A stretch of DNA of 36,029 nucleotides from a virus: positions 1 to 36,029 of the IMG/VR virus record IMGVR_UViG_3300033183_000142, one strand, 5' to 3'. The notes under the pieces were generated by a model. It saw nothing but the letters and a program-made list of their open reading frames with translations. It was not told the DNA's origin and did no database searches. This document shows, piece after piece, positions 2,824 to 35,072 of the stretch; the stretch's first letter is position 1; each line of letters starts with the position of its first letter. The position numbers and the translations under genes are program-made.

Positions 2824-3128
2824 CCGAAAAAGACATGTATGATCTCAACGGTGACGGCAAGATCGACGAAGTAGAGCGCAAAATCATGTTAGAAGATATG
2901 CGCCGCAAGATGGAAGATGAAGATGCCCAACGTGACTCTATCCGCAAGATGGCATGGTTTGCATTATTCGGACTCTTGCTATATCCATTTGGTATATTCC
3001 TTGCGGACTTGTTTAGTATGGGTACAGCCGCGAATTTAATTGCAAATATCGCACCTACCTATTTCGCCTCGATCGCTGTACTAGTATCAGCCTTCTTTGG
3101 GGCAAGTGCTATTAAGGCGAAGAAGTAA
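2820..3128 (+). CDS. Two-helix membrane protein with EF-hand-like loop; holin or holin partner candidate
   Basis: Residues 8-19 fit the 12-residue EF-hand calcium loop, with acidic or polar ligands D8, N10, D12, K14, D16 and E19 and Gly at 13. A charged helix follows (to ~43), then two hydrophobic segments at ~45-66 and ~73-97 and a short Lys-rich end. It is directly upstream of the holin and overlaps it by one base, so a role in lysis timing or as a second holin is plausible. Whether the loop binds calcium is untested, because isolated EF loops often occur as EF-hand-like repeats in other folds. Confidence 0.75.
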   Translation: MTEKDMYDLNGDGKIDEVERKIMLEDMRRKMEDEDAQRDSIRKMAWFALFGLLLYPFGIFLADLFSMGTAANLIANIAPTYFASIAVLVSAFFGASAIKAKK

Positions 3129-3523
3129 TGTTACAAGCTCTTATTGGACCAGTTACCGGATTACTGGATAAATTTATTGAAGACAAGGACCAGAAAAATG
3201 CCTTGGCTCACGAAATTGCAACCATGGCCGAAAAACAGGCGCATGAAGCCGCTCTCGCTCAAGTGGAAGTCAACAAAGCAGAAGCGCAACACAAATCAAT
3301 CTTCGTCGCAGGGTGGCGACCATTCATCGGGTGGACGTGCGGGGTCGCGCTTGCATACCACTTTGTGGTTGCTCCACTCATACTATTCGGAGTGTCGGTC
3401 TCTGGGGTTGAAATACCTAGACTGCCTGCGTTCGATATGGACTCGCTAATGACTGTATTACTTGGTATGCTAGGACTTGGTGGTCTGCGTACCTATGAAA
3501 AGCAAAAAGGATTGACAAAATAA
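3128..3523 (+). CDS. Holin, three-transmembrane (Holin_3TMs / GTA holin) family
   Basis: The N-terminal ~60 residues form an amphipathic, charged helix rich in Ala, Glu and Lys. The conserved core GWRPFIGWTCGVALAYHF starts a hydrophobic region (~63-90), and the end of the protein has the family pattern LLGMLGLGGLRTYEKQKG. These features match the three-TM holins of phages and gene transfer agents. It should open the inner membrane late in infection so that the endolysin encoded next can reach peptidoglycan. The stop shares one base with the endolysin start. Confidence 0.88.
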   Translation: MLQALIGPVTGLLDKFIEDKDQKNALAHEIATMAEKQAHEAALAQVEVNKAEAQHKSIFVAGWRPFIGWTCGVALAYHFVVAPLILFGVSVSGVEIPRLPAFDMDSLMTVLLGMLGLGGLRTYEKQKGLTK

Positions 3524-3975
3524 TGTATCAATTATCACAAAGATCACTATCTAAATTAGAAGGTGTAGACGAACGATTAGTTAAAATCGTATGTCGCGCA
3601 ATCGAAATCACTGAAATTGACTTTGGTGTAATCCAGGGTCTGCGTACTGAAGAAGAGCAAAAGGCTCTAGTGGCAAAAGGTCTATCTCAGACCATGAAGT
3701 CGAAGCACCTGGAAGGTCTGGCCGTAGATCTTATGGCATATGTAGATGGCAGAGGCTGTTGGGAGTTATCTGCTTATGATGACATCGCCGACGCTATGCA
3801 ACAAGCCGCGACTGAAGAAGGAATACCCGTCAGATGGGGTGCGGCCTGGAATGTTTCGGATATTCGTGAATGGGACGGGTCGATGGGAGAAGCGATGAAT
3901 TATTACGTTGATACTAGGCGGGCTGAAGGGAAGCGTCCTTTTATCGACGCTCCACATTTCGAGCTATATTTATAG
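3523..3975 (+). CDS. Endolysin, peptidase M15 family (L-alanoyl-D-glutamate peptidase type)
   Basis: The 150-aa protein has the zinc peptidase signature S60-K-H62-x-x-G-x-A-V-D69 and the C-terminal H145-F-E motif, giving the expected zinc ligands H62, D69 and H145. The size is normal for single-domain M15C endolysins, which cut peptide cross-links in the cell wall. There is no signal peptide, so export depends on the holin just upstream. It is the last gene of the late operon, facing a convergent minus-strand operon only 4 bp away. Confidence 0.93.
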   Translation: MYQLSQRSLSKLEGVDERLVKIVCRAIEITEIDFGVIQGLRTEEEQKALVAKGLSQTMKSKHLEGLAVDLMAYVDGRGCWELSAYDDIADAMQQAATEEGIPVRWGAAWNVSDIREWDGSMGEAMNYYVDTRRAEGKRPFIDAPHFELYL

Positions 3976-3979
3976 CTTG

Positions 3980-4234
3980 CTATTTGTTAAAATCCAAGGG
4001 AGAGCCTTCCTTTGGCTCTCGTGATACTGCTCGATAGGCTCTGTGGACCACCGTATAGTCGTTAACCGGCATATGGTGGGATTCACGTTGTTCGATCCAA
4101 TCTAGAAGATCATTAACCACAGCTACTAGATTATCCTGGAATTCAGGTAATTCGTCGATCGGTCCACAATTGCGGCACCAATTACGATCGGACAGCAGAT
4201 CGCCGCAGTGGAGACAGTGGGTATATTCAGTCAT
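3980..4234 (-). CDS. Small zinc-ribbon protein, 84 aa
   Basis: The start at 4234 is preferred over the longer frame to 4297, because GGAGA lies at a good distance before it and the protein then begins directly with the motif. Cys7, Cys10, Cys20 and Cys23 make two CxxC-type knuckles, a zinc-ribbon pattern; the rest is helical and acidic with a basic end. The start overlaps the gene before it by 8 bases (ATGACTGA). A nucleic-acid or protein-binding accessory role is possible, but no known phage regulator is recognised. Confidence 0.75.
   Translation of the reverse strand: MTEYTHCLHCGDLLSDRNWCRNCGPIDELPEFQDNLVAVVNDLLDWIEQRESHHMPVNDYTVVHRAYRAVSREPKEGSPLDFNK
4000..4020. terminator. Hairpin between convergent operons (weak terminator candidate)
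   Basis: GAGAGCC and GGCTCTC form a perfect 7-bp stem around a 7-base loop, inside the 3' end of the minus-strand zinc-ribbon gene and 25 bp after the endolysin stop. The plus strand has no T run after it; the minus strand has only a short TTTT a few bases on. It may slow both converging transcripts, but it is not a standard intrinsic terminator. Confidence 0.35.
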
Positions 4235-4370
4235 TTTTATTTCTCCAATAATTATCAGGCCATATACCAATTCCGAATAGACGACGCAGGGCGACATCTA
4301 TACCGGCACTTAAGAATAATACGAACACCCAGGATAGGGCAAATATTGAGATGGTAAATATAGTATCCAT
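4227..4370 (-). CDS. Small membrane protein, 47 aa
   Basis: One hydrophobic segment at residues ~3-24 (IFTISIFALSWVFVLFLSA) is followed by a basic, aromatic tail (RRLF, WPDNYWRNKN). The ATG overlaps the TAA of the gene before (TAATG), and GGAG lies 8 bases upstream. It is easily missed because of its length, but signals on both ends are convincing. No family is recognised; it probably acts in the inner membrane early in infection. Confidence 0.65.
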   Translation of the reverse strand: MDTIFTISIFALSWVFVLFLSAGIDVALRRLFGIGIWPDNYWRNKND

Positions 4371-4798
4371 TATCTTTTCTCCAGTATGTAGATTTCTTGT
4401 ACTCTAGCTCTGCGCTTAATTCGCTTATCGCGAATCGAGCAAATCTCGCCAATTCTACCACAGGCGTATTTAATACCCTGGACAATCTGCCAGTGATTAC
4501 CGGCCACTATCAAGTATGTGGTATCACCACTGCGATCGCGATCCTTGGCCCAAGCCGCGAGAGTAGGTCGTGTATTTCTATCAATGTAGTGGCGATAGGC
4601 TACATAGATATTGTGGGCGTTTAAAATGAATTCGAATTCACTAAAGTCAGAGCCGGTGATCATAGTGCGGCCTGATCTAGCTCGCATCATACGTGAAATG
4701 TCAGCCGTATTGAGACCGGTAAGGAATGAAACCACGGCAGGTCCACAATAGCGGTTATCTTTGCCTGAACGGTTGATTGAGTGTAATTTGATTTTCAT
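4370..4798 (-). CDS. C39-like (papain-fold) cysteine peptidase-like protein, 142 aa
   Basis: The pattern NRYCGPAVVSFLTG places a candidate catalytic Cys at residue 18 at the start of a helix, and AGNHWQIVQG gives a His at 102; this order and spacing fit C39/papain-like folds. I recognise this protein type in marine and other phages, where it is normally called hypothetical. The C-terminus is basic (RIKRRARVQ). It has a good AGAGG ribosome site, and the stop overlaps the next start. It might process a protein or deamidate a host target, but the substrate is unknown and the domain may be an inactive relative. Confidence 0.7.
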   Translation of the reverse strand: MKIKLHSINRSGKDNRYCGPAVVSFLTGLNTADISRMMRARSGRTMITGSDFSEFEFILNAHNIYVAYRHYIDRNTRPTLAAWAKDRDRSGDTTYLIVAGNHWQIVQGIKYACGRIGEICSIRDKRIKRRARVQEIYILEKR

Positions 4799-4825
4799 AT
4801 CTATCCTCTCTATCCTGAGGGTGGC

Positions 4826-5158
4826 TTACGCCACCTCTCCGTATGTATCAAAAATGTAAATGTGGGCTGAATCTTCGATGATCTTCTTTGCTTTTTTGCC
4901 TGAGAAGTGTTGTGGCTCTGAACTATAAAAGACCGAAACGTCTGCATATTTGGTAACGCCACCACGTGGCCCCATTATAAAGTTCATACCGCGATTTGCA
5001 ATGTACCACTTATCAGTAGTTACGAAAACAGAAATCGAGAAAGAACGACGACCGATTTCTTCGATCTTCAATTCGATTTTCCATTCTGGGTGTACACGCT
5101 TCGCTACTTCGATTTGAGCCTTCAAACGTGAAATTGTGTTGATTTGCATTGCGTTCAT
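4826..5158 (-). CDS. Unknown phage protein, 110 aa, first gene of the minus-strand operon
   Basis: The start at 5158 is chosen over one at 5197, because GAGG stands 8 bases upstream and the promoter -10 box (5188-5193) lies upstream of 5158, while the longer start would fall at or before the transcription start. The protein mixes an N-terminal helical part (ISRLKAQIEVAKRVHPEWKI) with beta-rich segments and a Lys-rich helix (GKKAKKIIEDS). There are no membrane segments or known motifs. As first gene behind a strong promoter it is likely made early and in quantity. Confidence 0.65.
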   Translation of the reverse strand: MNAMQINTISRLKAQIEVAKRVHPEWKIELKIEEIGRRSFSISVFVTTDKWYIANRGMNFIMGPRGGVTKYADVSVFYSSEPQHFSGKKAKKIIEDSAHIYIFDTYGEVA

Positions 5159-5187
5159 TTTTAATTCCTCTATCAATCTATGTAAAT

Positions 5188-5216
5188 ATTGTACCACGGC
5201 TTGATTATTTTGTCAA
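5188..5216 (-). promoter_or_regulatory. Sigma70-type promoter for the minus-strand operon
   Basis: On the minus strand TTGACA (5211-5216) and TACAAT (5188-5193) are separated by exactly 17 bp. The predicted start of transcription is about 20-25 bases before the ATG at 5158. This is one base from full consensus and needs no phage factor, so the four genes down to 3980 are probably read immediately on infection. The TTGTC/GACAA dyad of the left composite element lies about 40 bp upstream. Confidence 0.85.
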
Positions 5217-5255
5217 TATATTGTTTATATGTTGCAGTTTTTATAAGGGGATTGA

Positions 5256-5406
5256 TATTGTCATCGAGAGACAATAGGTTTATATGCGGTAACATCGGTA
5301 ACACGGTAACAAACACGCCAGAGACTAAGAAGGACGCGGATTTTGGTGTTACTGAACATAACAACACTTTCGGTAACATCGGTAACATGATATAATGAGT
5401 GCGTAG
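5256..5406 (+). repeat. Left composite control element (dyad + CGGTAACA repeats)
   Basis: In order: a 7-bp inverted repeat TATTGTC-N7-GACAATA (5256-5276); three direct CGGTAACA repeats (5287-5294, 5296-5303, 5304-5311); TAAGAAGGACG (5326-5336); GTGTTACTGAACATA (5346-5360); two more CGGTAACA (5371-5378, 5380-5387); GAGTGCGTAG (5397-5406). The same blocks occur in the same order on the opposite strand at 17336-17478. The last two repeats cover the -35 region of the replication-operon promoter, which fits an operator. An iteron-type origin is the other possibility. Confidence 0.85.
5388..5396 (+). promoter_or_regulatory. Extended -10 promoter of the replication operon
   Basis: TGATATAAT is a full extended -10 (TGnTATAAT). 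There is no TTGACA-like box 16-18 bp upstream; this space is filled by CGGTAACA repeats ending one base before the TG. The promoter therefore either works on the extended -10 alone or needs a protein bound to the repeats. The leader to the ATG at 5465 is about 60 nt. Confidence 0.75.
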
Positions 5407-5464
5407 GGTCTAGAGTATGTCTCTGATTCCTTCTTTTAACCCCTTTATATAGAGAGAATAGTGT

Positions 5465-6991
5465 ATGAGTGCAGAGAGATTCCGGTCGCTTTTTACCGGA
5501 AATGATCGGTCCTTCGGTGTGTTCAATCCGAAGACCAATAAATTATTCACTAAAAATCAGCCAGTAGATTTATCTAATTACGAAGAACACCTGGAAGGCT
5601 CCAAAGGTGTTGGTATAGTGCCGATCATGGACGATGAGACATGTTGGTTTGGCGCGATCGATATTGATGCTCACGGCGATGCCCCAGATATTGATTTGTT
5701 AGAATTAGAGCAGAAGGTACGAGATAACGATTTTCCACTTACGATCTGCAGATCTAGATCGGGTGGAGCGCACCTATATCTATTTTTGACCGATCCTGCA
5801 CCTGCCAAGACATTAAGAAAGGTATTAGCGAATTGGGCAGGTGTTATAGGATATGCGGGTGTAGAGATATTTCCTAAGCAAGATAGTCTACCCGAATCTG
5901 GTGGCGAACGACAGCTTGGTAATTGGATTAATATGCCATATTTCGACGCTGAGGATACCAATAGATTCGCATTCGAAGGTGGCAAGAAAATCGACCTTAA
6001 CCACTTCTTAGACATCGCAGAGTCCAGGCGTATTAAACCGGCTATTCTAGTAGAAAAAGCCGAAGGTGGTTACGCGGAAGCCCCACCTTGTATTCAGAAA
6101 ATGATTACTGATGGTGTCGGCCATGGGCATCGCAACGAAGCATTATATAATTTGGTGCTCTATTATAAGAAAGCTAATCCCGAAACCTGGCGTGACAAGT
6201 CATTTGATGCAAATGCTACAATATTCGAAGAGCCGCTATCGTATGCTGAAGCCAAAAAGACTATTCAAAGTGCCGGTCGTCGAGATTATCGTTATAAGTG
6301 TAAAGAAGAGCCTTGCCGGTCCAACTGTAACAGCTCAGTATGCGTCACTCGCAAATTTGGCATTACGCCAGAGGAACGCGGCGAATTAGAGATCGGCAAG
6401 CCACCTGAATTTGATAAATTAGAAAAGTACACGACCGATCCGGTGAAGTGGGTATTGTATGTCGATGGTACGCCAATTACTCTGTCAACTGCCGAGCTTA
6501 TGGATTACCGCGCAGTGCGGCGAGCGATCGCTGACAATTTGACCCGTATTATCGCACCCATGAAAAATGACAAGTGGGAAGTGATGCTACATAAAATTAT
6601 GTCTGAAGCGATCGTAGTAGAAGCACCAGAAGAAGCATCGACCTATGGATTCATTAAAGATCGATTGTACGAATTCTTTGCACGTACAGATTTGTCGTCT
6701 GATGGTGAAAATATCGAGGAACGTGAAGCCCTATTCCTGGGGTCGCCGGTCGTACAGAAGGTAGACGGACAGCGAGTGGTATATTTCCGTGGACCGGATT
6801 TTATTGATTTTTTGAAGAAGAATCGATCGGAAGAACTGAAAGGGTCGAATTTATGGATGGCTCTTCGCCGAGTGGGAGTCCAACATACTAAATTAAGGGT
6901 GAAAAATCAAGTGGTGTCTGTCTGGTTTGCTCCGTTGAATGAATCAGATTATATCGAATTAACACCTGCTAGAGTGGAGCCAGAGATATGA
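5465..6991 (+). CDS. Archaeo-eukaryotic (AEP) type primase / primase-polymerase
   Basis: AEP catalytic motifs are visible: AIDID with D66 and D68, SRSGGAHLYLF with H103, and the later acidic motif EIFPKQ (~134-139) followed by GERQLGNWINMPYF. This order matches the primase domain seen in phage and TOTE-type systems. A helical PriCT-like region follows (GHGHRNEALYNL at ~220-230). Cys209 and the cluster C279, C284, C288, C293 suggest a zinc or iron-sulphur site. The C-terminal 180 residues are of unknown fold. It should make primers for the family A polymerase. It is the first gene of the operon with an AGAGAG ribosome site, and its last codons overlap the helicase start. Confidence 0.85.
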   Translation: MSAERFRSLFTGNDRSFGVFNPKTNKLFTKNQPVDLSNYEEHLEGSKGVGIVPIMDDETCWFGAIDIDAHGDAPDIDLLELEQKVRDNDFPLTICRSRSGGAHLYLFLTDPAPAKTLRKVLANWAGVIGYAGVEIFPKQDSLPESGGERQLGNWINMPYFDAEDTNRFAFEGGKKIDLNHFLDIAESRRIKPAILVEKAEGGYAEAPPCIQKMITDGVGHGHRNEALYNLVLYYKKANPETWRDKSFDANATIFEEPLSYAEAKKTIQSAGRRDYRYKCKEEPCRSNCNSSVCVTRKFGITPEERGELEIGKPPEFDKLEKYTTDPVKWVLYVDGTPITLSTAELMDYRAVRRAIADNLTRIIAPMKNDKWEVMLHKIMSEAIVVEAPEEASTYGFIKDRLYEFFARTDLSSDGENIEEREALFLGSPVVQKVDGQRVVYFRGPDFIDFLKKNRSEELKGSNLWMALRRVGVQHTKLRVKNQVVSVWFAPLNESDYIELTPARVEPEI

Positions 6992-8664
6992 AAATTGATT
7001 ATGTGAGCAATCGTTTTATAGTGCAGTGTAGCTTGGCTGAAAATGCGATGGTGTCGTTTATCCCATCAAAGAGGTATGATCGTCGCAAAGACATATGGGT
7101 AGTACAGAATCTAAATCGCAATTGTGATTATATGCTACGTCATCTGATGCAGTATATGACTGAATCCGCGATCGAAGTGGCCCAGGAGACAGTAGCTAAG
7201 AATACAGTTCGCTATGAGAAATTCCCATCTTGGTATAAATTCAAGACGATACCTTATGAGCATCAACGCCAGGCTATGGATTTTGCCTATGGCTTGACTC
7301 GATTTGCACTATTTATGGAGATGGGTACCGGTAAGACTAAGACAGTAATAGATCTATATTCAGCACATTTTATGTCTGGCAAGATTGATACCTGGATTGT
7401 ATTTTGTCCGGTCGATCTGAAGCGAAATTGGGAGCGCGAAATTGACATACATTGTCCTTTATCAGACATACCAGTGTATGTGATAGACTCAGGTAAGAAA
7501 GGAGAGAAGGCCGCATTAGAAGCTGTACAACAAGAGCGTTTTATAGCCATCGTAGGCATCGAGAGTCTCTCTGTTGGCTTCAAGAAAGGATCAGCCTATA
7601 AGTCTACCCTAGATTTAGTGGTCAACCGAAAGGTGGCGGTGTGTATTGACGAGTCACATAATTGTAAATCGGCAGACTCAAATCGATCTAAAAACGTACT
7701 ACAACTGTCGCAGACTGCCAGGATTATGAATATTATGACAGGCACACCAACAAGCCAAGGATTCATAGATCTATATATGCAATTTGAGATCTTGGACCCG
7801 AATATATTAGGCTTCGGTTCATTCTTCGCATTTAGATCTAGGTATGCAGTGATGGGCGGTTATGAGAACAAGCAGATTGTGTCATATCAGCACATAGATG
7901 AATTGATGGATCTGATTAAGCCGGTTACCTTCCAATGTACCAAAGAAGAAGCCCTAGATCTGCCACCCAAGACCTACACAGTCCTGGAAGTTGAGATGTC
8001 AGCCGAGCAGAAGAAGGCGTACAGGCAGATTAATGAGGATATGCGTACTGTCGTCGGCGATGATATCGAGGTGACGATCGAGCACATGATGACCAAATTC
8101 GGCGCATTGCAACAGATATCTGGTGGATTTCTCAATTACGATAATGAGTGGGAAGAGCGAGAGGCCAAGATATTGATTGAGCCGACCAAGAATCCAAAGA
8201 TACGCGAAATCATCAAATTGGCCGAAGATCACCCAGATAAATCAATTATCGTATGGGCCAAATATCGAGCTGAAATCGAGATGATCAGACAGGCTCTAGA
8301 GCCATTAGGCGGTGTATCTCAATATCATGGCGGTATCGAAGATCGCATGGAGCAGGTCGACGCATTTAATAACGGTACTAATCGCTTCTTTGTGTCTAAT
8401 CAGCAGACAGGCGGTACCGGCTTGAATTTGGTGGTATCCGATCTAGTGATCTATTATTCTAATTCGTTTAGATTGGTGGACCGGATGCAATCAGAAGATC
8501 GGTGCCACCGAATCGGCCAGAAGTCGAAGAAGGTGACATATGTAGATATATGGTGTAAGGATACCAAAGATGAACACATCTATTGTGCCATCTCGAACAA
8601 GCAGGATTTGGCCGACTACTTGCGGACCAAATTGGCCGATGGTAAACTTGCAGAGATCGAGTGA
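6988..8664 (+). CDS. SNF2-family superfamily 2 helicase
   Basis: The ~85-residue N-terminal part is followed by the two RecA-like lobes. Lobe 1 has the Q-motif-like PYEHQRQAM, Walker A GTGKT (113-117) and motif II DESH (221-224), then MTGTPTS as motif III. Lobe 2 has IIVWAKYRAEIEMI, QTGGTGLNL and the SNF2 motif VI DRCHRIGQ. The length of 558 aa is normal for the short phage members. It probably opens or remodels duplex DNA at replication start or forks, working with the primase whose stop it overlaps by 4 bases. No DnaB-type helicase is seen in the genome. Confidence 0.92.
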   Translation: MKIDYVSNRFIVQCSLAENAMVSFIPSKRYDRRKDIWVVQNLNRNCDYMLRHLMQYMTESAIEVAQETVAKNTVRYEKFPSWYKFKTIPYEHQRQAMDFAYGLTRFALFMEMGTGKTKTVIDLYSAHFMSGKIDTWIVFCPVDLKRNWEREIDIHCPLSDIPVYVIDSGKKGEKAALEAVQQERFIAIVGIESLSVGFKKGSAYKSTLDLVVNRKVAVCIDESHNCKSADSNRSKNVLQLSQTARIMNIMTGTPTSQGFIDLYMQFEILDPNILGFGSFFAFRSRYAVMGGYENKQIVSYQHIDELMDLIKPVTFQCTKEEALDLPPKTYTVLEVEMSAEQKKAYRQINEDMRTVVGDDIEVTIEHMMTKFGALQQISGGFLNYDNEWEEREAKILIEPTKNPKIREIIKLAEDHPDKSIIVWAKYRAEIEMIRQALEPLGGVSQYHGGIEDRMEQVDAFNNGTNRFFVSNQQTGGTGLNLVVSDLVIYYSNSFRLVDRMQSEDRCHRIGQKSKKVTYVDIWCKDTKDEHIYCAISNKQDLADYLRTKLADGKLAEIE

Positions 8665-8677
8665 TAGAGAGGTTACA

Positions 8678-8989
8678 GTGGCTAAAGTTTATGTAGTGCA
8701 GGAAAATTCGTACGTCGACTATTCGGATGCAGAACGCTTCGGCGAGGTCACATTCATGACTGCGGACGAATATAAGCCAATGAACAATTCACTTCGAAAT
8801 CGTTCGATAACCGATCAGATCAGAGGTCAGATGCTTCATTTTGAAGAAGACGATTTTCTGATTCTGACTGGTAATCCAACAGTGATTGGCTATGCCTTTC
8901 ATTGTGCATTAGAACGATTCGATGAGGTGAATATTCTTCATTGGGATAAAATATCGAGAGAGTATAGAGCATTTACGTTTAGAGGATAA
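8678..8989 (+). CDS. Unknown phage protein, 103 aa
   Basis: The frame is open further upstream, but the part before 8678 lies in the helicase gene; GTG at 8678 follows AGAGAGG at good spacing. The protein (VAKVYVVQENSYVDYSDAERFGEVTFMTADEY) looks alpha/beta, has no Cys cluster, and ends with an aromatic basic tail. The segment DDFLILTGNPTVIGYAFHCAL is like small phage proteins that accompany replication genes. No function can be given beyond membership in the replication operon. Confidence 0.65.
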   Translation: MAKVYVVQENSYVDYSDAERFGEVTFMTADEYKPMNNSLRNRSITDQIRGQMLHFEEDDFLILTGNPTVIGYAFHCALERFDEVNILHWDKISREYRAFTFRG

Positions 8990-8993
8990 ATAG

Positions 8994-9467
8994 ATGTTAG
9001 ATAGATTAGAGATGATGGCAGAGGAAACGCAAAAAGCGTTGGCCGACCTTCCTATCCAGGAAGAGTTAGAAAAAGAGGAGCTTCGCGATCTAGCGCGGCT
9101 TCAACAGCGATTAAAGGATCTGCACGAGCTGATGGACAAGAATAAGTCCGAAGTCGGTAAGTGTTTTGATATGCTCCGGGTCGCTGTTATCCCTAAAATG
9201 ATGGAAGACCAAGGTGTAGCTACGATTACTCTGTCTGGAATTGGAAGACTTCAATTGACAGATGATATTCGGGTTAAAGTCCTGGACAAGTCCAAAGAAT
9301 TTGAGTGGTTAGAGGAGACCAAAAATGGCGATTTGATCGCTCAAACGGTCAACGCTTCCTCGCTCAAAGCATTGCTTCGCCGATATTTGCGGGAAGGCAA
9401 AGCGATTCCGGAAGATGCTTTCGAAGTGTCTCCGTTTACCCGCGCATCAATAGTAAAGGAAAAATGA
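8994..9467 (+). CDS. Coiled-coil protein of the replication operon, 157 aa
   Basis: Residues ~5-60 are strongly helical and charged (coiled-coil-like: EELEKEELRDLARLQQRLKD). A small alpha/beta domain follows with ATITLSGIGRLQLTDDIRV and a conserved end NASSLKALLRRYLREG-KAIPEDAFEV. I have seen this C-terminal pattern next to ssDNA-binding protein genes in phages, but I know no assigned function. It lies one base before the ssDNA-binding candidate. A recombination or replication accessory is possible. Confidence 0.65.
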   Translation: MLDRLEMMAEETQKALADLPIQEELEKEELRDLARLQQRLKDLHELMDKNKSEVGKCFDMLRVAVIPKMMEDQGVATITLSGIGRLQLTDDIRVKVLDKSKEFEWLEETKNGDLIAQTVNASSLKALLRRYLREGKAIPEDAFEVSPFTRASIVKEK

Positions 9468-9468
9468 A

Positions 9469-10182
9469 ATGAGCACTAAAGCAGTAGCAACAGCGAAAGG
9501 TGACCAATTACCTGCGTTTTTGGCCGATAAAATGACCGATACCCGTGGCTCTGAAGAGATCGGTACCAATGATCTGACAATTCCCAGGATCGAATTGGTG
9601 CAGTCTCTGTCGGCTTGCCGCAAAAAGAATGATCCGGCCTATATTCCAGGTATCGAGGAAGGCATGTTGTATAACAATGTCACACGCGAGATGTATGGTG
9701 AATCTGTGAACGTAGTGCCAGTGTATTTTCGTAAGGAATACCTGCTCTGGCGCGACCAAGATTTAGGTGGTGGTTTTGGGGGATCCCATCAATCTATGGC
9801 GGAAGCGGAACAAGCTCGCCTAGCACAAGAGAAGCCAGAAGAGTGGGAAGTTGTAGATACGGCACAGCAATTCGTGTTAGTCATCAAAGAAGATGGCTCA
9901 GCCGAAGAAGCTGTGTTGTCAATGGCCAAGTCCAAGGCGAAAGTGTCGCGGAATTGGAATTCATTGATTCGTATCAACGGTGGGCCGCGTTTTTCTCGCG
10001 TTTACCGGTTGTCAGGTGTATCAGATCAGAATCCTGCCGGTCAGGATTACTTCAATCTGGCAGTATCTAACGTCGGCTTTGTCACTGAAGAGGTCTTTGG
10101 TCAAGCTGAACATATCTACGAGTTGATCAAGTCTGGTCAAGCTTCGGCTGATAGTTCATTTGATGGTGTAGACACAATGTGA
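9469..10182 (+). CDS. Candidate ssDNA-binding / recombination-associated protein, 237 aa
   Basis: The product has a conserved phage pattern: IPRIELVQSLSACRKKND, GMLYNNVTREMYG and VNVVPVYFRKEYLLWRDQ, then a Gly-rich loop and a beta-rich C-terminal half. Related phage proteins sit in the place of an ssDNA-binding protein in replication operons. There is no classic acidic C-terminal tail, so the assignment rests on context and partial recognition. A strong terminator just after this gene would raise its transcript over those downstream, which suits a protein needed in large amounts. Function should be treated as probable only. Confidence 0.5.
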   Translation: MSTKAVATAKGDQLPAFLADKMTDTRGSEEIGTNDLTIPRIELVQSLSACRKKNDPAYIPGIEEGMLYNNVTREMYGESVNVVPVYFRKEYLLWRDQDLGGGFGGSHQSMAEAEQARLAQEKPEEWEVVDTAQQFVLVIKEDGSAEEAVLSMAKSKAKVSRNWNSLIRINGGPRFSRVYRLSGVSDQNPAGQDYFNLAVSNVGFVTEEVFGQAEHIYELIKSGQASADSSFDGVDTM

Positions 10183-10188
10183 TATTAT

Positions 10189-10212
10189 GTGGCCCTTCGG
10201 GGCCACTTTTTT
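10189..10212 (+). terminator. Intrinsic terminator inside the replication operon
   Basis: GTGGCCC-TTCG-GGGCCAC gives a perfect 7-bp stem with a stable UUCG loop, followed directly by TTTTTT. It lies 6 bp after the stop at 10182 and 14 bp before the next ATG. No new promoter is visible before 10226, so the helicase, polymerase and Z-cassette genes depend on readthrough or antitermination. Confidence 0.93.
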
Positions 10213-10225
10213 ATAGAGGATAGAG

Positions 10226-11638
10226 ATGCGCAATTCAATTGTTATTTACGGTCCACCGGGAACTGGTAAGACTTCCAGGCTTGTACGTATTATCAAAGAA
10301 TATATTAATTCAGGTGTGGCACCTTCCAGGATTGGTGTGGTGTCATTCACAAAGGCGGCGGCTAAAGAAATGGCCGTTCGCGCTGACGAAGTAGGAATGC
10401 AGATCGCTACCTTGCATTCGTTCGCCTACCACCAAGCCAATATTATCAAAGATCAAGTGATCAACAATGAGTGGTTCAAGCTGTTCGCACAACACTCAAA
10501 GATTCAGATATCTGGTACCCAGAATTACGAGATCGAAGAATTAGGCGAAGGCGACGCTTATTTGTCTTTATACTCATATGGTCGATCGATCTTGAGTTAC
10601 GATTGGGCAACTATCTTTAAGAATGCGCCAACCATTGGTAGTTTGCCTAGATTCAATTATTTCATAGATTCGTATTGTGACTTTAAAGAGCAATTCGGCG
10701 TAGTTGATTTCTCCGATATGCTAGATCTAGCTTTACATAAGGCACCGGATCTAGATGTCCTAATTTTAGACGAGGCCCAGGATTTCACGCCGCAACAGTG
10801 GCAGTTGATTAGATCCTGGATTCCTGAGATCGAAACGGTAGTTATTGCAGGTGACGATGACCAAGCTATTTATAAATGGAATGGTGCCGATCCTGAGGGT
10901 ATGCATGCCTTCGAACGAAAGCATCAATCAGAGCGTATCATTCTTGACCAATCATACAGAATACCTAAAGCGGTCCATAGTCTGGCGAATACTCTAATTT
11001 CTCGTGTTCGATCGCGGGTACCAAAGGCGTACAAGCCAAGGGATTATGAAGGAACTGTTACCAGATATGCAGATGCCAGGTTGGTCAAATTCGACTCAGA
11101 TATAGATACTTTGGTATTGGTGCGTAATCACTCACTTAGGACCGATGTCGAAGCCGCTATGATGCAACGTGGCGTTCCATATATCTCCGAAGGCGGGAGA
11201 CCGGCTCCGTTAAATTCGCCGCAAGCTCGCGCTGTAAGACTATGGTTGTTGGCCCAGAAGTCCAAGGGAATGATCACGGATGCGCAGGAGCGGCAGATTA
11301 TTAGGCATCTCAAACCGATTTATAAGAATAAGCCATTCGACAAGCTACTTGCCATGAATTGGATGAATGCGTTAGAATTACCTAAGCCGTTATTGCATTA
11401 TTTGAGTGCGGTAGAAGGTGAATATGGACATCTACCCCTGGACCCCAAGATCCGTATTTCTACGATTCACGGGTCAAAAGGGCGCGAAGCTGATAGAGTG
11501 ATATTGATCAATGGAATGAGTCAACGTACTTACGAATCTCAGGACACAGACTCCGAGATTCGTACTTTTTATGTCGGCATCACTAGAGCGAAGAAAGAAT
11601 TAATAATAGTATCTGCTTTTAATGGAATACATATATGA
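10226..11638 (+). CDS. UvrD/Rep-like superfamily 1 DNA helicase
   Basis: All main SF1A motifs are present: Walker A GPPGTGKT (9-16), motif Ia SFTKAAAKEM, motif II DEAQD (182-186), motif III GDDDQAIYKWNGA, motif IV-like LDQSYRIP, motif V STIHGSKGREADRVIL and motif VI YVGITRAK near the end. At 470 aa it is shorter than bacterial UvrD (~720) and lacks long 1B/2B insertions, as is usual for phage versions. It should move 3' to 5' on ssDNA and assist replication or recombination. Its stop overlaps the polymerase start by 4 bases. Confidence 0.93.
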   Translation: MRNSIVIYGPPGTGKTSRLVRIIKEYINSGVAPSRIGVVSFTKAAAKEMAVRADEVGMQIATLHSFAYHQANIIKDQVINNEWFKLFAQHSKIQISGTQNYEIEELGEGDAYLSLYSYGRSILSYDWATIFKNAPTIGSLPRFNYFIDSYCDFKEQFGVVDFSDMLDLALHKAPDLDVLILDEAQDFTPQQWQLIRSWIPEIETVVIAGDDDQAIYKWNGADPEGMHAFERKHQSERIILDQSYRIPKAVHSLANTLISRVRSRVPKAYKPRDYEGTVTRYADARLVKFDSDIDTLVLVRNHSLRTDVEAAMMQRGVPYISEGGRPAPLNSPQARAVRLWLLAQKSKGMITDAQERQIIRHLKPIYKNKPFDKLLAMNWMNALELPKPLLHYLSAVEGEYGHLPLDPKIRISTIHGSKGREADRVILINGMSQRTYESQDTDSEIRTFYVGITRAKKELIIVSAFNGIHI

Positions 11639-13425
11639 TAGCGATAGATGTTGAGACCACCGGCGTTGATTGGACCACCGATCGCGTGTTTGGTGTGGCG
11701 ATAGCCTGGATTGAGAATGGCGAGATCAAGTCTGATTATTTTGATGTGCGACGCGATCCAGTTAGATACCAAGAATTGAAGAAGTACAAAGACACTTTGA
11801 TTGTAAATCACAATATCAAATTTGATATGCATATGTTGTTAAATGATGGTATTGAATTGCGTAATTGCGAATGTACAATGGTGCGAGCGGCGTTGATCGA
11901 TGAACACCGGCGCGATTATTCGCTAGACGCTTTAGCCAAGGATTATTTAAATGAGGCGAAAGTATCGGATATCTACGAAGAGTTGGCCGAGAGATTTGGT
12001 GGGCGAGCGACCAGAAACGCTCAAATGCCGAACTTACAACATGCGCCACCAGAGATTGTGGCCCCTTACGCCAAAAAAGACGCTGAACTTGCATTAAGGC
12101 TTTACGTTGCACAGCAGGATCTATTACCACCGGTGTGGGAGTTAGAAAAACGTTTATTTCCCTACATTTTCAGAATGGAACGCGAAGGCGTACGAGTTGA
12201 CCTGGAAGAGGCCGAGCGCAGACAGCAGATGTTGAATCCGCAGATCGCTCAAATGCAAAAGCAGTTAGACCAAATTGCCGGGTTCGCTGTGAATCCTAAT
12301 CCATCAAAATCGATACATGAACTGTTCGACCCTAAAAAAGGAACAGATGGCCTATGGCGAGCTTGTGATGGTACTATTTTGCCTGAGACACCTGCGGGTA
12401 AACCGTCGATCGGCTCAGCTTCATTACAGATTATGAAACATCCGGCGGCTCGTCTGATTATTCAGATTCGCAAATTGACCAAGACGCGAGATACCTTTAT
12501 CGGCTCGCATATTATGGGCCATGCTCGCGGCGATCGAGTACACCCGAATATCAATCAGACCAAAAGTGATGGCGAAGGTGGTACCGGTACCGGTCGACTA
12601 TCCTACACCAAACCGGCATTACAGCAGATACCGTCACGTGACAAAGAGATCGCGAAGATCGTACGGCCTATTTTTGTACCAGACGATAGTATGGGTTGGT
12701 CGTACGGCGATCTAGATCAACATGAATTACGCATCTTTCACCATTATGTCAACAATTCAGAGATCGTACAAGCTTATATTGATAATCCAGATCTAGACGG
12801 GCATGCCGCAGTATCAGAATTGACCGGGCTACCAAGGAATCCACCACCAGAAGGTGGCGCAAATGCTAAGCAGATGAATTTAGCTATGGTGTTTAATATG
12901 GGCGGCGGCGAGCTTGCGGCGGCGATGGGCCTACCGTATACTACCGACACCTGGCATGGCCGCGAGATTAAAGTTGCCGGACCTGAGGCTCAGAAGATCA
13001 TAGACGACTATTACCAAATGATACCTGGAGTTAAGGAGATCGCGCAGAAGGCTAGATCTATCGCCAAGAGTCGCGGCTACGTTAGAACATTGATGGGTCG
13101 CCATATTAGATTTCCGGGTGGCGAATTTACCCACAAAGCATCGGGCCTAATTTACCAAGGCACAGCCGGTGATTTGAACAAGGATAACATATGCAGGATT
13201 TTCGAATATTTAGATGCCGAATGCCCAGATGCCAGGTTGCTTCTAAACATTCACGATGAATATTCGATTTCGCTCCCATTTGGCGGAGCATCAAAGCACC
13301 TTCGGGCAATTAAGGAGGAAATACAAAGAAGACCCGAAATCAGAGTACCGTTACGAATAGACTTTTCAGAACCACAAAGCAATTGGTGGGACGCTACATG
13401 CGCACCCATCATCACAGGAGAGTAA
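11635..13425 (+). CDS. dpoZ: Family A DNA polymerase with 3'-5' exonuclease (DpoZ-type)
   Basis: The exonuclease domain has intact metal ligands: D5 and E7 (AIDVETTG), D64 (NHNIKFD) and Y145/D149 (YAKKD). The polymerase domain has motif A D359-LDQHELR, O-helix K412-QMNLAMVFNMGGG and motif C IHDE with D541. The position of E. coli Phe762 is Leu416, and Tyr766 is Phe420; motif A is DLDQHE where DYSQIE is usual. There is no 5'-3' exonuclease domain. It lies directly before purZ, which is the place of DpoZ in known Z-genome siphoviruses, so it probably inserts 2-aminoadenine opposite thymine. The DpoZ name rests on context; the polymerase call is certain. Confidence 0.93.
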   Translation: MIAIDVETTGVDWTTDRVFGVAIAWIENGEIKSDYFDVRRDPVRYQELKKYKDTLIVNHNIKFDMHMLLNDGIELRNCECTMVRAALIDEHRRDYSLDALAKDYLNEAKVSDIYEELAERFGGRATRNAQMPNLQHAPPEIVAPYAKKDAELALRLYVAQQDLLPPVWELEKRLFPYIFRMEREGVRVDLEEAERRQQMLNPQIAQMQKQLDQIAGFAVNPNPSKSIHELFDPKKGTDGLWRACDGTILPETPAGKPSIGSASLQIMKHPAARLIIQIRKLTKTRDTFIGSHIMGHARGDRVHPNINQTKSDGEGGTGTGRLSYTKPALQQIPSRDKEIAKIVRPIFVPDDSMGWSYGDLDQHELRIFHHYVNNSEIVQAYIDNPDLDGHAAVSELTGLPRNPPPEGGANAKQMNLAMVFNMGGGELAAAMGLPYTTDTWHGREIKVAGPEAQKIIDDYYQMIPGVKEIAQKARSIAKSRGYVRTLMGRHIRFPGGEFTHKASGLIYQGTAGDLNKDNICRIFEYLDAECPDARLLLNIHDEYSISLPFGGASKHLRAIKEEIQRRPEIRVPLRIDFSEPQSNWWDATCAPIITGE

Positions 13426-13427
13426 AA

Positions 13428-13688
13428 ATGTCAGATTACGACAATACAAACAGTGGCGCATTATTTCTTAATAACAATCGAAAGACCGATAAGCACCCAG
13501 ATTTGACCGGCACTATCAACATTAATGGTAAAGATATGTGGATTTCCGGTTGGACCAAGGTCGCTAAATCAGGCAAACGAGCAGGGCAAAGGTACGTGTC
13601 TCTAGCTGTTAATGAGATGGACGAGCAACCATCAAGTCCAGGTTCAATTGGCTCAATTTTAGACGATATCAACGGACAATTGCCATGA
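13428..13688 (+). CDS. Small DUF736-like phage protein, 86 aa, between dpoZ and purZ
   Basis: ATG at 13428 follows AGGAGA at good spacing and is preferred to the upstream in-frame ATG at 13383, which lies in the polymerase gene. The sequence has the pattern DNTNSGALFLNNNRKTDKHP, then TGTININGKDMWISGWTK and a GQRYVSLAV strand, ending in a flexible acidic tail (SILDDINGQL). This small beta-barrel type is common in phage replication modules and could be an OB-fold-like ssDNA binder. Overlap with purZ by 4 bases couples it to the Z-genome genes. No enzymatic residues are seen. Confidence 0.7.
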   Translation: MSDYDNTNSGALFLNNNRKTDKHPDLTGTININGKDMWISGWTKVAKSGKRAGQRYVSLAVNEMDEQPSSPGSIGSILDDINGQLP

Positions 13689-14752
13689 AAAATGTAGATG
13701 TAATTTGCGATTTGCAGTTTGGATCGACCGGTAAGGGCTTAATTGCCGGGTATTGGGCTAAACAGAATGAGCCAGACGTAGTGGTTACTGCTTGGTCTAT
13801 GAATGCCGGGCATACCTTTATCGATGACGATGGCACCGAATATGTACATTGTATGTTGGCCAATGGTATCGTATCACCTAAAATTAAGTATGTGCTCATT
13901 GGTCCTGGATCTCAAGTCGGACTCCGGAAGCTGTTCGAAGAAGTACGAGATTCTGGTTTTGATAAGCCGGTGTATATACACGAACATGCTTGTATCATTC
14001 AGCAACGTCATATCGACCAAGAGAATGAGGTTATGACCGGAATTGGCTCGACTAAGAAAGGATGCGGAGCGGCTCTTGCTGAGAAGATTGGTCGAAATCC
14101 ATTAGCACCGATCGTGGCCAAGCATTATCGAGATGAAGTGATGCGTCTATGCAAAGAATACCGCGTCGATGTCGAGGTGTTGTCGAGTGCTGAGTATAAC
14201 AAAATGGTTGATGCGGCCAAGTTAATCCAAGTCGAAGGCGCACAGGGATTTTCGCTTGGTATTAATTCTGGCTTCTACCCTTATACTACGTCTCGTGAGT
14301 GCACACCCGCTCAGATAATGGTAGACTGTGGATTACCTATCCGCAAGATGCGCCATGTTATCGGCACTATGCGTACTTATCCTATTCGTGTGGCTAACCG
14401 GTATGATGACATGGGCGAGATGGTCGGTTGGTCTGGACCTTGTTACCCAGATCAGCATGAGATATCGTTCGAGGATATTGGCGTTAGCCAGGAATTGACG
14501 ACTGTTACTCAGCTACCGAGGCGTATTTTTACATTCTCGAAAGATCAGACCAAAGAGGCCGTTCGTATGGTGCGTCCTGATTATGTATTCTTGAATTTCA
14601 TCAACTACTGCCAGGATTCAGACGAGGCTTTACAAATCATTAATACGATTGACAATATTTGCCATTGGTACGGCCTGTCCGGTGTCACGCATTTAGGCGT
14701 TGGACCGAAAGTCACAGATGTGGTACCATATAGTGGGGAGCTTAGATTGTGA
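13685..14752 (+). CDS. purZ: PurZ, 2-amino-2'-deoxyadenylosuccinate synthase
   Basis: This is a 355-aa adenylosuccinate synthetase homologue (bacterial PurA ~430 aa). The PurA loop GDEGKG, with the catalytic Asp, reads G13-S14-T-G-K-G here; Ser in that place is the mark of phage PurZ. The NAGHT motif with His43 is kept, as are GIGSTKKGCG (119-128) and the EGAQG motif (184-188) before TTSRECTPAQ. PurZ joins aspartate to dGMP, using a nucleoside triphosphate, to make the succinyl precursor that host PurB cleaves to 2-amino-dAMP; kinases then make dZTP. Neighbours mazZ, datZ and the polymerase complete the pathway. The Ser14 replacement argues clearly against simple AMP synthesis. Confidence 0.94.
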   Translation: MKNVDVICDLQFGSTGKGLIAGYWAKQNEPDVVVTAWSMNAGHTFIDDDGTEYVHCMLANGIVSPKIKYVLIGPGSQVGLRKLFEEVRDSGFDKPVYIHEHACIIQQRHIDQENEVMTGIGSTKKGCGAALAEKIGRNPLAPIVAKHYRDEVMRLCKEYRVDVEVLSSAEYNKMVDAAKLIQVEGAQGFSLGINSGFYPYTTSRECTPAQIMVDCGLPIRKMRHVIGTMRTYPIRVANRYDDMGEMVGWSGPCYPDQHEISFEDIGVSQELTTVTQLPRRIFTFSKDQTKEAVRMVRPDYVFLNFINYCQDSDEALQIINTIDNICHWYGLSGVTHLGVGPKVTDVVPYSGELRL

Positions 14753-15372
14753 GAGATGACCAAAACAAGCCTAAAATGTCATTGATCGACCCTAATTTCG
14801 AAGAACAGCTAGCGCGAGTCCTGGAATTAGGCGAGATCAAATATGGCGGTCCAGATTGGAAAAAGGGTATGGATTTCTCTATCATGATCGATGCGACGAT
14901 TCGCCACTTGAATGAGATCAAGAGACATCAATTCTACGATAAAGAGTCTAAGCAATCACATATGGCACACGTTGCCGCAAATATGATGATGCTGAATTAC
15001 TACATGGACAATTATTCGGATTATGACGTATTCGATAATTTGAAGTGGGTATCACCTGGCAATTTTGCTCGTAGAGACCAGATCGGCGATCTGCAAGAGC
15101 GGATTACCAGTTGGGCAGATAAGATTTTCCCAGAACGGACACCTTACGATGCTCTCCGAAAAATGGTGTTAGAAGAAATACCGGAATTGCTACATGAAGG
15201 ATTAGACGATCCTGAGGAGTGGGCCGATGTATTTATTCTGATGTTTGATGCCGCGAATCTTCGAGGAATCGATATCGTCAAGGCGACTAATGATAAAATG
15301 ACAAAAAATGAGGCTCGTAAATGGAAGCTCAACAAAGAGACTGGATTGATGAACCACGTGAAATCGGACTAA
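14749..15372 (+). CDS. mazZ: MazZ-type (d)GTP pyrophosphohydrolase with extra N-terminal domain
   Basis: Start GTG overlaps the purZ stop (GTGA) and has GGGGAG 8 bases before it. Residues ~6-85 match the DUF5664-type dATP/dGTP pyrophosphohydrolase domain (KPKMSLIDPNF, LELGEIKYG, IRHLNEIKRHQ, SHMAHVAANMMML). Residues ~115-195 form a second MazG-like domain with E142, E143, E146, E157 and D160 (EExxE...ExxD), and the related ending NDKMTKNEARKW. MazZ hydrolyses (d)GTP to (d)GMP and so feeds PurZ. The two-domain form may come from fusion of two members of the all-alpha NTP-PPase group. Which domain is active on dGTP cannot be read from sequence. Confidence 0.88.
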   Translation: MRDDQNKPKMSLIDPNFEEQLARVLELGEIKYGGPDWKKGMDFSIMIDATIRHLNEIKRHQFYDKESKQSHMAHVAANMMMLNYYMDNYSDYDVFDNLKWVSPGNFARRDQIGDLQERITSWADKIFPERTPYDALRKMVLEEIPELLHEGLDDPEEWADVFILMFDAANLRGIDIVKATNDKMTKNEARKWKLNKETGLMNHVKSD

Positions 15373-15875
15373 CACTGGCTGATGTCTTAAGATCTTCTGA
15401 TGTCAACCGGTGGCAGATTGTCAGAACTTCCAGGCATCAATCAGTAGCCGAGCACACCTTTAATGTGATGTTGATTGCGTTGGATATCGCAGAATCAATG
15501 GGCATTGAAGATCAGCCTTCTATAATGAAATGCGCTCTGATGCATGATTTACCAGAGGTGTTGACCGGTGATGTTGCTACGCCTACTAAGAGAGTCCTGG
15601 GTATCGGCGATCGATTAGAGCAGATCGAAGCTCTAATTTCATACCGAGGTATTAAGACCCAGGATTACAGTGATGTAATCCGCCACATCGTAAAGATGGC
15701 TGATTTGGTGGAGGCCGCACATTTCCTTCACCATTTCGGAATTGGGCCGCATGCTCAATCGGTGTTGGACCAGATAATCAGGCGTATTAATACGTTCCCA
15801 GAGGCACGAGCGGCCTTCGCGAGAGCTTTGGACTCGACTCCGACCACGATAGACGGTGCTTATGGCGCGACCTGA
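15321..15875 (+). CDS. datZ: DatZ, HD-domain dATP triphosphohydrolase
   Basis: The start lies 52 bases inside mazZ, with GAGG 7 bases upstream, so translation is coupled. HD metal ligands are H45 (VAEH), H75-D76 (MHDLPEV) and D128 (MADLVEA), the plan of YfbR-like nucleotidases. The pocket residues I recall from S-2L DatZ (W20, I22, P79) appear to have counterparts W31, I33 (RWQIV) and P88 (VATPTK); the D76-to-D128 spacing of 52 also fits. DatZ removes dATP, leaving dA, so that the polymerase sees mostly dZTP. At 184 aa it is close to S-2L DatZ length. Together with purZ and mazZ this is the S-2L-like complete triad. Confidence 0.92.
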   Translation: MEAQQRDWIDEPREIGLTLADVLRSSDVNRWQIVRTSRHQSVAEHTFNVMLIALDIAESMGIEDQPSIMKCALMHDLPEVLTGDVATPTKRVLGIGDRLEQIEALISYRGIKTQDYSDVIRHIVKMADLVEAAHFLHHFGIGPHAQSVLDQIIRRINTFPEARAAFARALDSTPTTIDGAYGAT

Positions 15876-33744: not shown

Positions 33745-34497
33745 ATGGCGATTACTTTAGACGGTACTAATGGCCTTAATAACGGTGATGCGAACATCAC
33801 TAACGTAGGTGACATTGCTGTTGACTCAATCTCTGGAGATGCGGATAGCAATACCAAGATTACATTTGAAGGCTCTGATGTTATCAGTATTGATACTAAT
33901 GGCTCAGAACGTATGCGTATCGACTCCAGTGGCAACTTGTTGATGGGGACTACGAGTGAACAGCGACCAACTTTATCCAGAACTCCGCGAGCAACTTTTT
34001 ATAACACATCAGCAGAAGGTATGAATACTGTTGTTAGTGATTTAAGTTATGCAGGATGGGTACACACAAGCCTAGACGGTGGAACTGGCACTCACTACAT
34101 TGCTTTTTTTGAAAATGTTGTTGGCGTAAATGTCGGTCAAATTACTCATAACAGCACTAGTACATCGTATACAACATCATCAGACTATCGCCTTAAAGAA
34201 AATGTAGTCGATATGACTGGTGCGATTACCCGTGTTAAGTCTCTATCCCCTAAGCGGTTTAACTTCATCGCTGATACAGACGACACAACTGTCGATGGTT
34301 TCTTGGCACATGAAGCGGCAACTGTTGTTCCAGAAGCAGTACACGGAACTAAAGATGCAGTCGATGACGAAGGAAACCCAATCTACCAAGGCATTGACCA
34401 AGCTAAACTTGTGCCACTGCTGACGGGTGCATTACAGGAAGCGATTGCAGAAATTGAATCTCTCAAAGCGCGTGTAGACGCATTGGAGGCAAACTAA
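33745..34497 (+). CDS. Tail fibre with C-terminal S74 chaperone domain
   Basis: The N-terminal part has NGSERMRIDSSGNLLMGTTS, a repeat common to phage fibres. From ~150 the protein has SSDYRLKENV, the start of the intramolecular chaperone/peptidase S74 domain, followed by FNFIADTDDTTVDGFLAHEA and a coiled-coil end (IAEIESLKARVDALEA). In this family Ser of the SDYR region is the self-cleavage residue. The domain trimerises the fibre and may then be removed. Confidence 0.88.
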   Translation: MAITLDGTNGLNNGDANITNVGDIAVDSISGDADSNTKITFEGSDVISIDTNGSERMRIDSSGNLLMGTTSEQRPTLSRTPRATFYNTSAEGMNTVVSDLSYAGWVHTSLDGGTGTHYIAFFENVVGVNVGQITHNSTSTSYTTSSDYRLKENVVDMTGAITRVKSLSPKRFNFIADTDDTTVDGFLAHEAATVVPEAVHGTKDAVDDEGNPIYQGIDQAKLVPLLTGALQEAIAEIESLKARVDALEAN

Positions 34498-35072
34498 TGT
34501 CTAACTTGCCAACTGGCGTGTATATACACTCAAAACCAGATGGCACTCCTTTCTATGTTGGAAAGGGGAACAAGTATCGCATGGGCGAATTTTATGGCCG
34601 TAATAATTGGCATCAAAAGATCGTCAAAAAATACGGCAAACTCAACATCATCAAGAAGCATATTGAATGTTCTTCAGATGAAATTGCGTTAGAGCTAGAA
34701 ATTGGGCTAATAAAGCTAATGCGTAATAACGGCTATGAACTGTGCAATCTGACAGATGGCGGTGACGGAGTTAATGGTTACAAGCACGATCCAGAATCGG
34801 TTGAGCGTGTACGTCAGAAAAACTTAGGTAGAGTGCAGACACCTGAAGAACGCAAGTTACGGTCTGTGGCACTTAAAGGTAGGCCAAAAGGCAAGAGAAG
34901 CCCTGAGCATAATGCTAAAATTGGAGCATTGATTAAGGGGCGAAAATGGTACAACAACGGCAAGAATGTCGTTTTTTGTCATGAAGGTAATCAGCCTGAA
35001 GGCTATGTGCTTGGACGAGGCAAGACTACAATGATTTCAGAAACACAGGAGAAAAAGCTGTGTCAAAAATAG
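34497..35072 (+). CDS. GIY-YIG homing-type endonuclease with NUMOD3-like repeats
   Basis: The N-terminal catalytic domain starts G-V-Y-I-H with YVGKG and continues to a Glu-containing helix (ALELEIGLIKLM). The middle has NUMOD3-like DNA-binding repeats (GYKHDPESVERVRQKNLG and SPEHNAKIGALIKGRKW), then KWYNNGKNVVFCHEGN and PEGYVLGRG, an ending often seen in phage homing enzymes. It is a free-standing gene between two fibres, overlapping both (TAATG at its start; 13 bases at its end). Such genes spread by cutting relatives that lack them and add no virion function. Confidence 0.9.
   Translation: MSNLPTGVYIHSKPDGTPFYVGKGNKYRMGEFYGRNNWHQKIVKKYGKLNIIKKHIECSSDEIALELEIGLIKLMRNNGYELCNLTDGGDGVNGYKHDPESVERVRQKNLGRVQTPEERKLRSVALKGRPKGKRSPEHNAKIGALIKGRKWYNNGKNVVFCHEGNQPEGYVLGRGKTTMISETQEKKLCQK

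Follow-up and report, generated by a model that had tools for sequence, protein, structure and literature searches.

Among phages with 2-aminoadenine (Z) genomes, Acinetobacter phage SH-Ab 15497 (MG674163) is one of the three in which the dZTP pathway has been elucidated (PMC12884076). In the phages studied, the steps from dSMP to dZMP and on to dZTP are carried out by host enzymes (PMC12884076, PMC8342488), and purZ, mazZ and datZ of cyanophage S-2L are enough for Z to appear in the DNA of E. coli (PMC8342488). The order helicase-DpoZ-SSB-PurZ-MazZ-DatZ is common to SH-Ab 15497, PMBT28 (Salmonella), PSA28 (Pseudomonas) and JeffCo, and is also found in a 12-kb stretch of Kokobel2 (Providencia), whose record starts at dpoZ. 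More distant systems are built differently. S-2L lacks DpoZ, being replicated by an unselective PrimPol (PMC8065100), and has a single-domain MazZ, whereas Vibrio phage phiVC8 encodes PurZ, DatZ and DpoZ together with a MazZ-2 type enzyme (PMC8342488) and carries a primase between dpoZ and purZ. In the PurZ0 phages of Arthrobacter, Microbacterium and Gordonia, a PurA-like synthetase lies beside Pol I and DUF5664 or a dUTPase-like enzyme (PMC12884076), with no DatZ match found nearby.

The replication block of the window

The DNA analysed here (the window) is an entire IMG/VR record of 36,029 bases, an uncultivated contig that is probably incomplete. Judged by its studied relatives, it almost certainly represents most of the genome of a siphovirus-type phage of the SH-Ab 15497 / PMBT28 replication lineage that makes Z DNA. 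A sequence-only reading had placed dpoZ, purZ, mazZ and datZ at 11635-15875, and ORF calling returned all four genes at these coordinates on the plus strand, with family HMM matches well above chance level (Table 1). The same reading described one chain of overlapping genes, a chain that takes in a fifth gene missed there, ssb, which fills the interval between dpoZ and purZ. The dpoZ-ssb gap is 2 nt, purZ shares 4 nt with ssb on one side and 4 nt with mazZ on the other, and mazZ/datZ overlap by 52 nt.

Table 1 Replication and Z-pathway genes in the window
Gene product	Position	Strand	Length, matches and remarks
AEP-type primase	5465-6991	+	PF22548, PHROG 21866, PF00176 (cited jointly with the SNF2-type helicase)
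SNF2-type helicase	6988-8664	+	Matches cited jointly with the primase; like it, a replication gene common to related Z phages
UvrD/PcrA-like SF1 helicase	10226-11638	+	PF00580 E=4e-27, PHROG 1967 E=5e-88; opens the conserved block
DpoZ, family A DNA polymerase with 3'-5' exonuclease	11635-13425	+	596 aa; NF038380 E=2e-239
ssDNA-binding protein (SSB)	13428-13688	+	86 aa, ATG at 13428; PHROG 7364/18154 E ~1e-12
PurZ, putative succino-2-amino-dAMP synthase	13685-14752	+	355 aa; NF038379 E=1e-109
MazZ, putative pyrophosphohydrolase	14749-15372	+	207 aa, GTG start; PF18909 E=5e-23, PF04447 E=5e-9
DatZ, putative HD-domain dATP triphosphohydrolase	15321-15875	+	184 aa; PHROG 7076 E=4e-30

SH-Ab 15497 shares this gene order, including a tandem DUF5664-DUF550 MazZ, a primase and an upstream superfamily II helicase, and its enzymes are 59% (DpoZ), 57% (PurZ), 44% (MazZ) and 33% (DatZ) identical to those of the window. 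PMBT28, PSA28 and Kokobel2, from different hosts, have the same order and domain make-up (primase 57-59%, PurZ 54-55%, DatZ 34-38% and MazZ 39-40% identical). The position of the SF1 helicase matches SH-Ab 15497 and PMBT28. The AEP primase is 54-59% identical to its counterparts only in SH-Ab/PMBT28-type Z phages, the next best match being about 30%, and therefore the whole replication block is held in common. The SSB of the window could be aligned with SSBs at the matching position in five phages; its C-terminus reads ...LDDINGQLP, and so lacks the protein-docking tip usual for such proteins, which is DDDIPF or DDDLPF in the relatives.

It might be argued that the Z genes are decaying, or that they are a chimeric assembly artefact of an uncultivated contig, given that the 36 kb record is shorter than its 43-48 kb relatives and may be incomplete. 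Such an origin is extremely unlikely, since no reading frame in the Z block is broken and the genes lie close together, five isolated phages have the same order and neighbours, and base composition is even along the whole window. Elsewhere in the window, a homing/HNH-type endonuclease gene lies at 34497-35072 amid tail fibre genes (PHROG 314), and 1518-1967 gives a match to the Shedu SduA N-terminal domain that is probably due to chance (20.0 bits, below the cut-off of 27).

Assignment of the four enzymes

A Z-genome cluster, as had been proposed from the sequence, is what curated models, the closest PDB entries, the active sites, the gene order shared with SH-Ab 15497 and a PurZ/PurA tree all indicate. 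For each of DpoZ, PurZ, MazZ and DatZ the best solved-structure match is a Z-phage enzyme, and when the published catalytic and specificity residues (PMC8342488, PMC8065100, PMC8599892) were placed on the window proteins by alignment, almost all of them were found to be kept.

The PurZ of the window scored 365.9 bits against NF038379 (cut-off 300), and its best PDB match is S-2L PurZ (7odx, E=2e-80), with phiVC8 PurZ (6fm1) also matched. It carries the motif QFGSTGKG with Ser-14, in line with the GSTGKG by which the gene had been recognised. Reference residues S23, V241, T273 and R280 are kept (S14, V236, T272 and R279 in the window), reference Q308 is replaced by N307, as in phiVC8, and C204 of the dGMP pocket by Thr, where near relatives have Val or Thr. 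An ordinary phage adenylosuccinate synthetase that raises the dATP supply, lying beside unrelated nucleotide hydrolases in a phage with normal DNA, has to be considered here given the homology of PurZ and PurA, the window protein matching PF00709 with 105 bits and PurA models with 73-145 bits. However, the PurA scores are far below their cut-offs (368-700), whereas the PurZ model was passed, and where PurA has its catalytic Asp (GDEGKG) the window protein has Ser (GSTGKG).

Phylogenetic analysis pointed the same way. A tree of 61 proteins was built with IQ-TREE (LG+C20 PMSF), with cellular PurA taken by phmmer. In it, 47 PurZ rows lie on one side of a branch with 99/98 support, with the window among them, and the window protein falls in a clade of ten rows (97/95) together with SH-Ab 15497, JeffCo, PMBT28, PSA28, Kokobel2 and IMG/VR contigs. 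Outside the PurZ clade lie cellular PurA and the actinophage PurZ0 proteins, the latter on a separate branch and with another DpoZ subfamily (PMC12884076). No deepest branching order is claimed from this tree, in which one fragment stands for archaeal PurA and some long branches come together close to the root. Phylogeny of PurZ against PurA had been set beforehand as a check, with a position within cellular PurA counting against the assignment; since the window protein lies within the phage PurZ clade and outside PurA, that objection does not arise. An ordinary PurA was thus ruled out by models, active site and tree, and an enzyme that hydrolyses dATP, encoded in the same operon, would oppose any increase in dATP supply, making the normal-DNA reading very unlikely.

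The family A polymerase passed the NCBI model for DpoZ, NF038380, as had been expected (795.9 bits, cut-off 500), its best PDB match being phiVC8 DpoZ (7pbk, E=3e-136). By its sequence it is predicted to be a Z-preferring polymerase of the phiVC8/SH-Ab subfamily (NCBIfam DpoZ_1), a type known to favour dZTP (PMC8599892). The exonuclease acids D5, E7 and D64 are present in the alignment, as are the steric-gate Phe (F420, F459 in phiVC8), L416 (L455), G504 (G548), an HD dyad at 540-541, the helix-O insertion and the Arg/Met of the exonuclease E2 helix. The third insertion, at the fingers tip, is present yet shorter than in most relatives, and the N-terminus is shorter than theirs.

The gene described as a MazG-type pyrophosphohydrolase is indeed MazZ, but in a tandem form, with a DUF5664-type N-terminal domain (PF18909) followed by a DUF550/MazZ-1 C-terminal domain (PF04447). 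Its best PDB match is S-2L MazZ (7ody, E=3e-13). The metal ligands are kept (E142, E143, E146, E157 and D160, the last four corresponding to reference E35, E38, E50 and D53), together with the guanine-reading I163 and D167 (I56 and D60) and R190 (R83). The protein is compact, with 207 residues compared to 290-405 in SH-Ab/PMBT28-type phages; SH-Ab 15497 MazZ, of 385 residues, has a long linker and a C-terminal extension that are both absent from the window protein. Details vary between Z phages, because S-2L MazZ is specific for dGTP and the SH-Ab enzyme accepts dATP as well (PMC8342488). Since the DUF5664 protein of phage Wayne by itself hydrolyses dATP, dUTP and dGTP (PMC12884076), the tandem MazZ of the window probably acts on both purine dNTPs, dGTP and dATP. 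S-2L has the same purZ-mazZ-datZ order as the window and the same catalytic residues.

The HD-domain protein read as a dATPase matched PHROG 7076 (dATP triphosphohydrolase), establishing it as DatZ, and its best PDB match is S-2L DatZ (6zpa, E=2e-14). All 16 S-2L residues checked are identical, covering HD metal sites A and B, R19/K81/K116, W20, I22 and P79 (S-2L numbering), with W20 and I22 corresponding to W31 and I33 of the window. I22, which shuts out the 2-amino group in S-2L DatZ, is therefore among the residues kept. The differences of MazZ, DpoZ and SSB from their relatives are minor and touch no residue known to be essential or catalytic.

Predicted pathway and Z content

What the enzymes do, which steps fall to the host and how much Z results we infer from experimentally studied homologues. 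MazZ would convert dGTP to dGMP, which PurZ would condense with aspartate at the expense of ATP or dATP, giving dSMP. A PurB-type lyase and nucleotide kinases of the host would carry dSMP to dZTP. DatZ, PurZ and probably the DUF5664 domain would remove dATP; in SH-Ab 15497, dATP is lowered by MazZ as well as DatZ. DpoZ, with SSB and the helicases, would then copy the genome, favouring Z opposite T. The description of the locus as a complete pathway goes too far, because the phage genes cover dSMP synthesis, dATP lowering and Z polymerisation, but not the conversion of dSMP to dZMP and dZTP, for which the host supplies the enzymes in the phages studied.

Near-full replacement of adenine and resistance to restriction may reasonably be expected from what is seen in relatives. 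Should this hold, the virion DNA would contain Z:T pairs with three hydrogen bonds and would resist many restriction enzymes with A in their sites. The palindromes of the window (observed/expected: GATC 0.98, TCGA 1.00, CATG 0.65 and GCGC 0.70; sd of z 1.6 over all 4-mers) show no pattern separating A-containing from G/C-only sites. Z could also be made but replace adenine only in part, should one of the diverged components (the compact MazZ, the shortened DpoZ insertion or the diverged DatZ) be less selective, and the short third insertion of DpoZ, the low identities of DatZ and MazZ and the differing MazZ specificities of S-2L and SH-Ab 15497 (PMC8342488) would be in keeping with this. Yet the residues known to matter are all kept, and dATP removal and a Z-selective polymerase are both present and would act redundantly, so that partial replacement is very unlikely. 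The idea that the compact tandem MazZ and the shortened fingers insertion of DpoZ mark a sub-lineage with its Z selectivity set differently, for instance towards partial replacement, is likewise very unlikely; if true, such a sub-lineage would provide a natural test of the parts needed for full substitution.

Relatives of the cluster and PurZ-like genes elsewhere

The co-occurrence of all four genes had been put forward as noteworthy, a claim that did not survive comparison. A profile scan of IMG/VR gave 368 confirmed PurZ relatives, and the best 80, those most similar to the query profile, were examined; 62 of the 80 have 2.5 kb or more of sequence on either side of purZ, and 54 of these 62 carry all four genes within 7 kb, a proportion that may not hold for all PurZ phages. 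Among the same 62, four are without a recognisable DpoZ and four without a recognisable MazZ of this type. For IMG/VR phages with a PurZ of this kind, the four-gene set is the usual state, and the idea that it is exceptional was ruled out by these counts and by the order shared by five isolates. The window belongs, as an ordinary though diverged member, to a phage group already described, whose gene set and order were known from isolates. No relative found shares more than about 61% identity with its PurZ, the identities of its DatZ and MazZ to their relatives are no higher than 32-46%, and its portal protein reaches about 38% at most with any isolated phage. It adds a diverged member to the Z-genome phages, leaving the known picture unchanged.

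A PurZ search of cellular genomes yielded three contigs only, all resembling phage contigs binned into MAGs. On JAHFKN010000011.1 (11.4 kb, from a MAG labelled Ca. Gottesmanbacteria), genes for Pol I, a PurZ-like protein, an HNH endonuclease, a DatZ-like protein and a helicase lie at 3921-10866, and the PurZ-like gene, at 217.9 bits, falls short of the PurZ cut-off (300). Were the binning correct, a candidate-phyla bacterium would be tied to a diverged Z cluster, the alternative being a mis-binned phage contig. JAGVUR010000200.1 (41.9 kb, from a MAG labelled Verrucomicrobia) carries DpoZ-PurZ-MazZ-DatZ and is probably a phage contig; it may point to a host beyond the phyla that PMC12884076 names for Z phages.

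Bacillus phage vB_BpsS-140 encodes at 2929-4050 a PurA/PurZ-like protein with GSEGKG that scored below both the PurZ and the PurA cut-offs and branches beside the PurZ clade in our tree. No recognisable DpoZ, MazZ or DatZ was found in the 7 kb read there, and by its sequence the protein is possibly an intermediate. A Gammaproteobacteria MAG has its own PurA on C542, and its contigs C103 and C631, with PurZ-like or partial PurA-family matches, are probably phage contigs.
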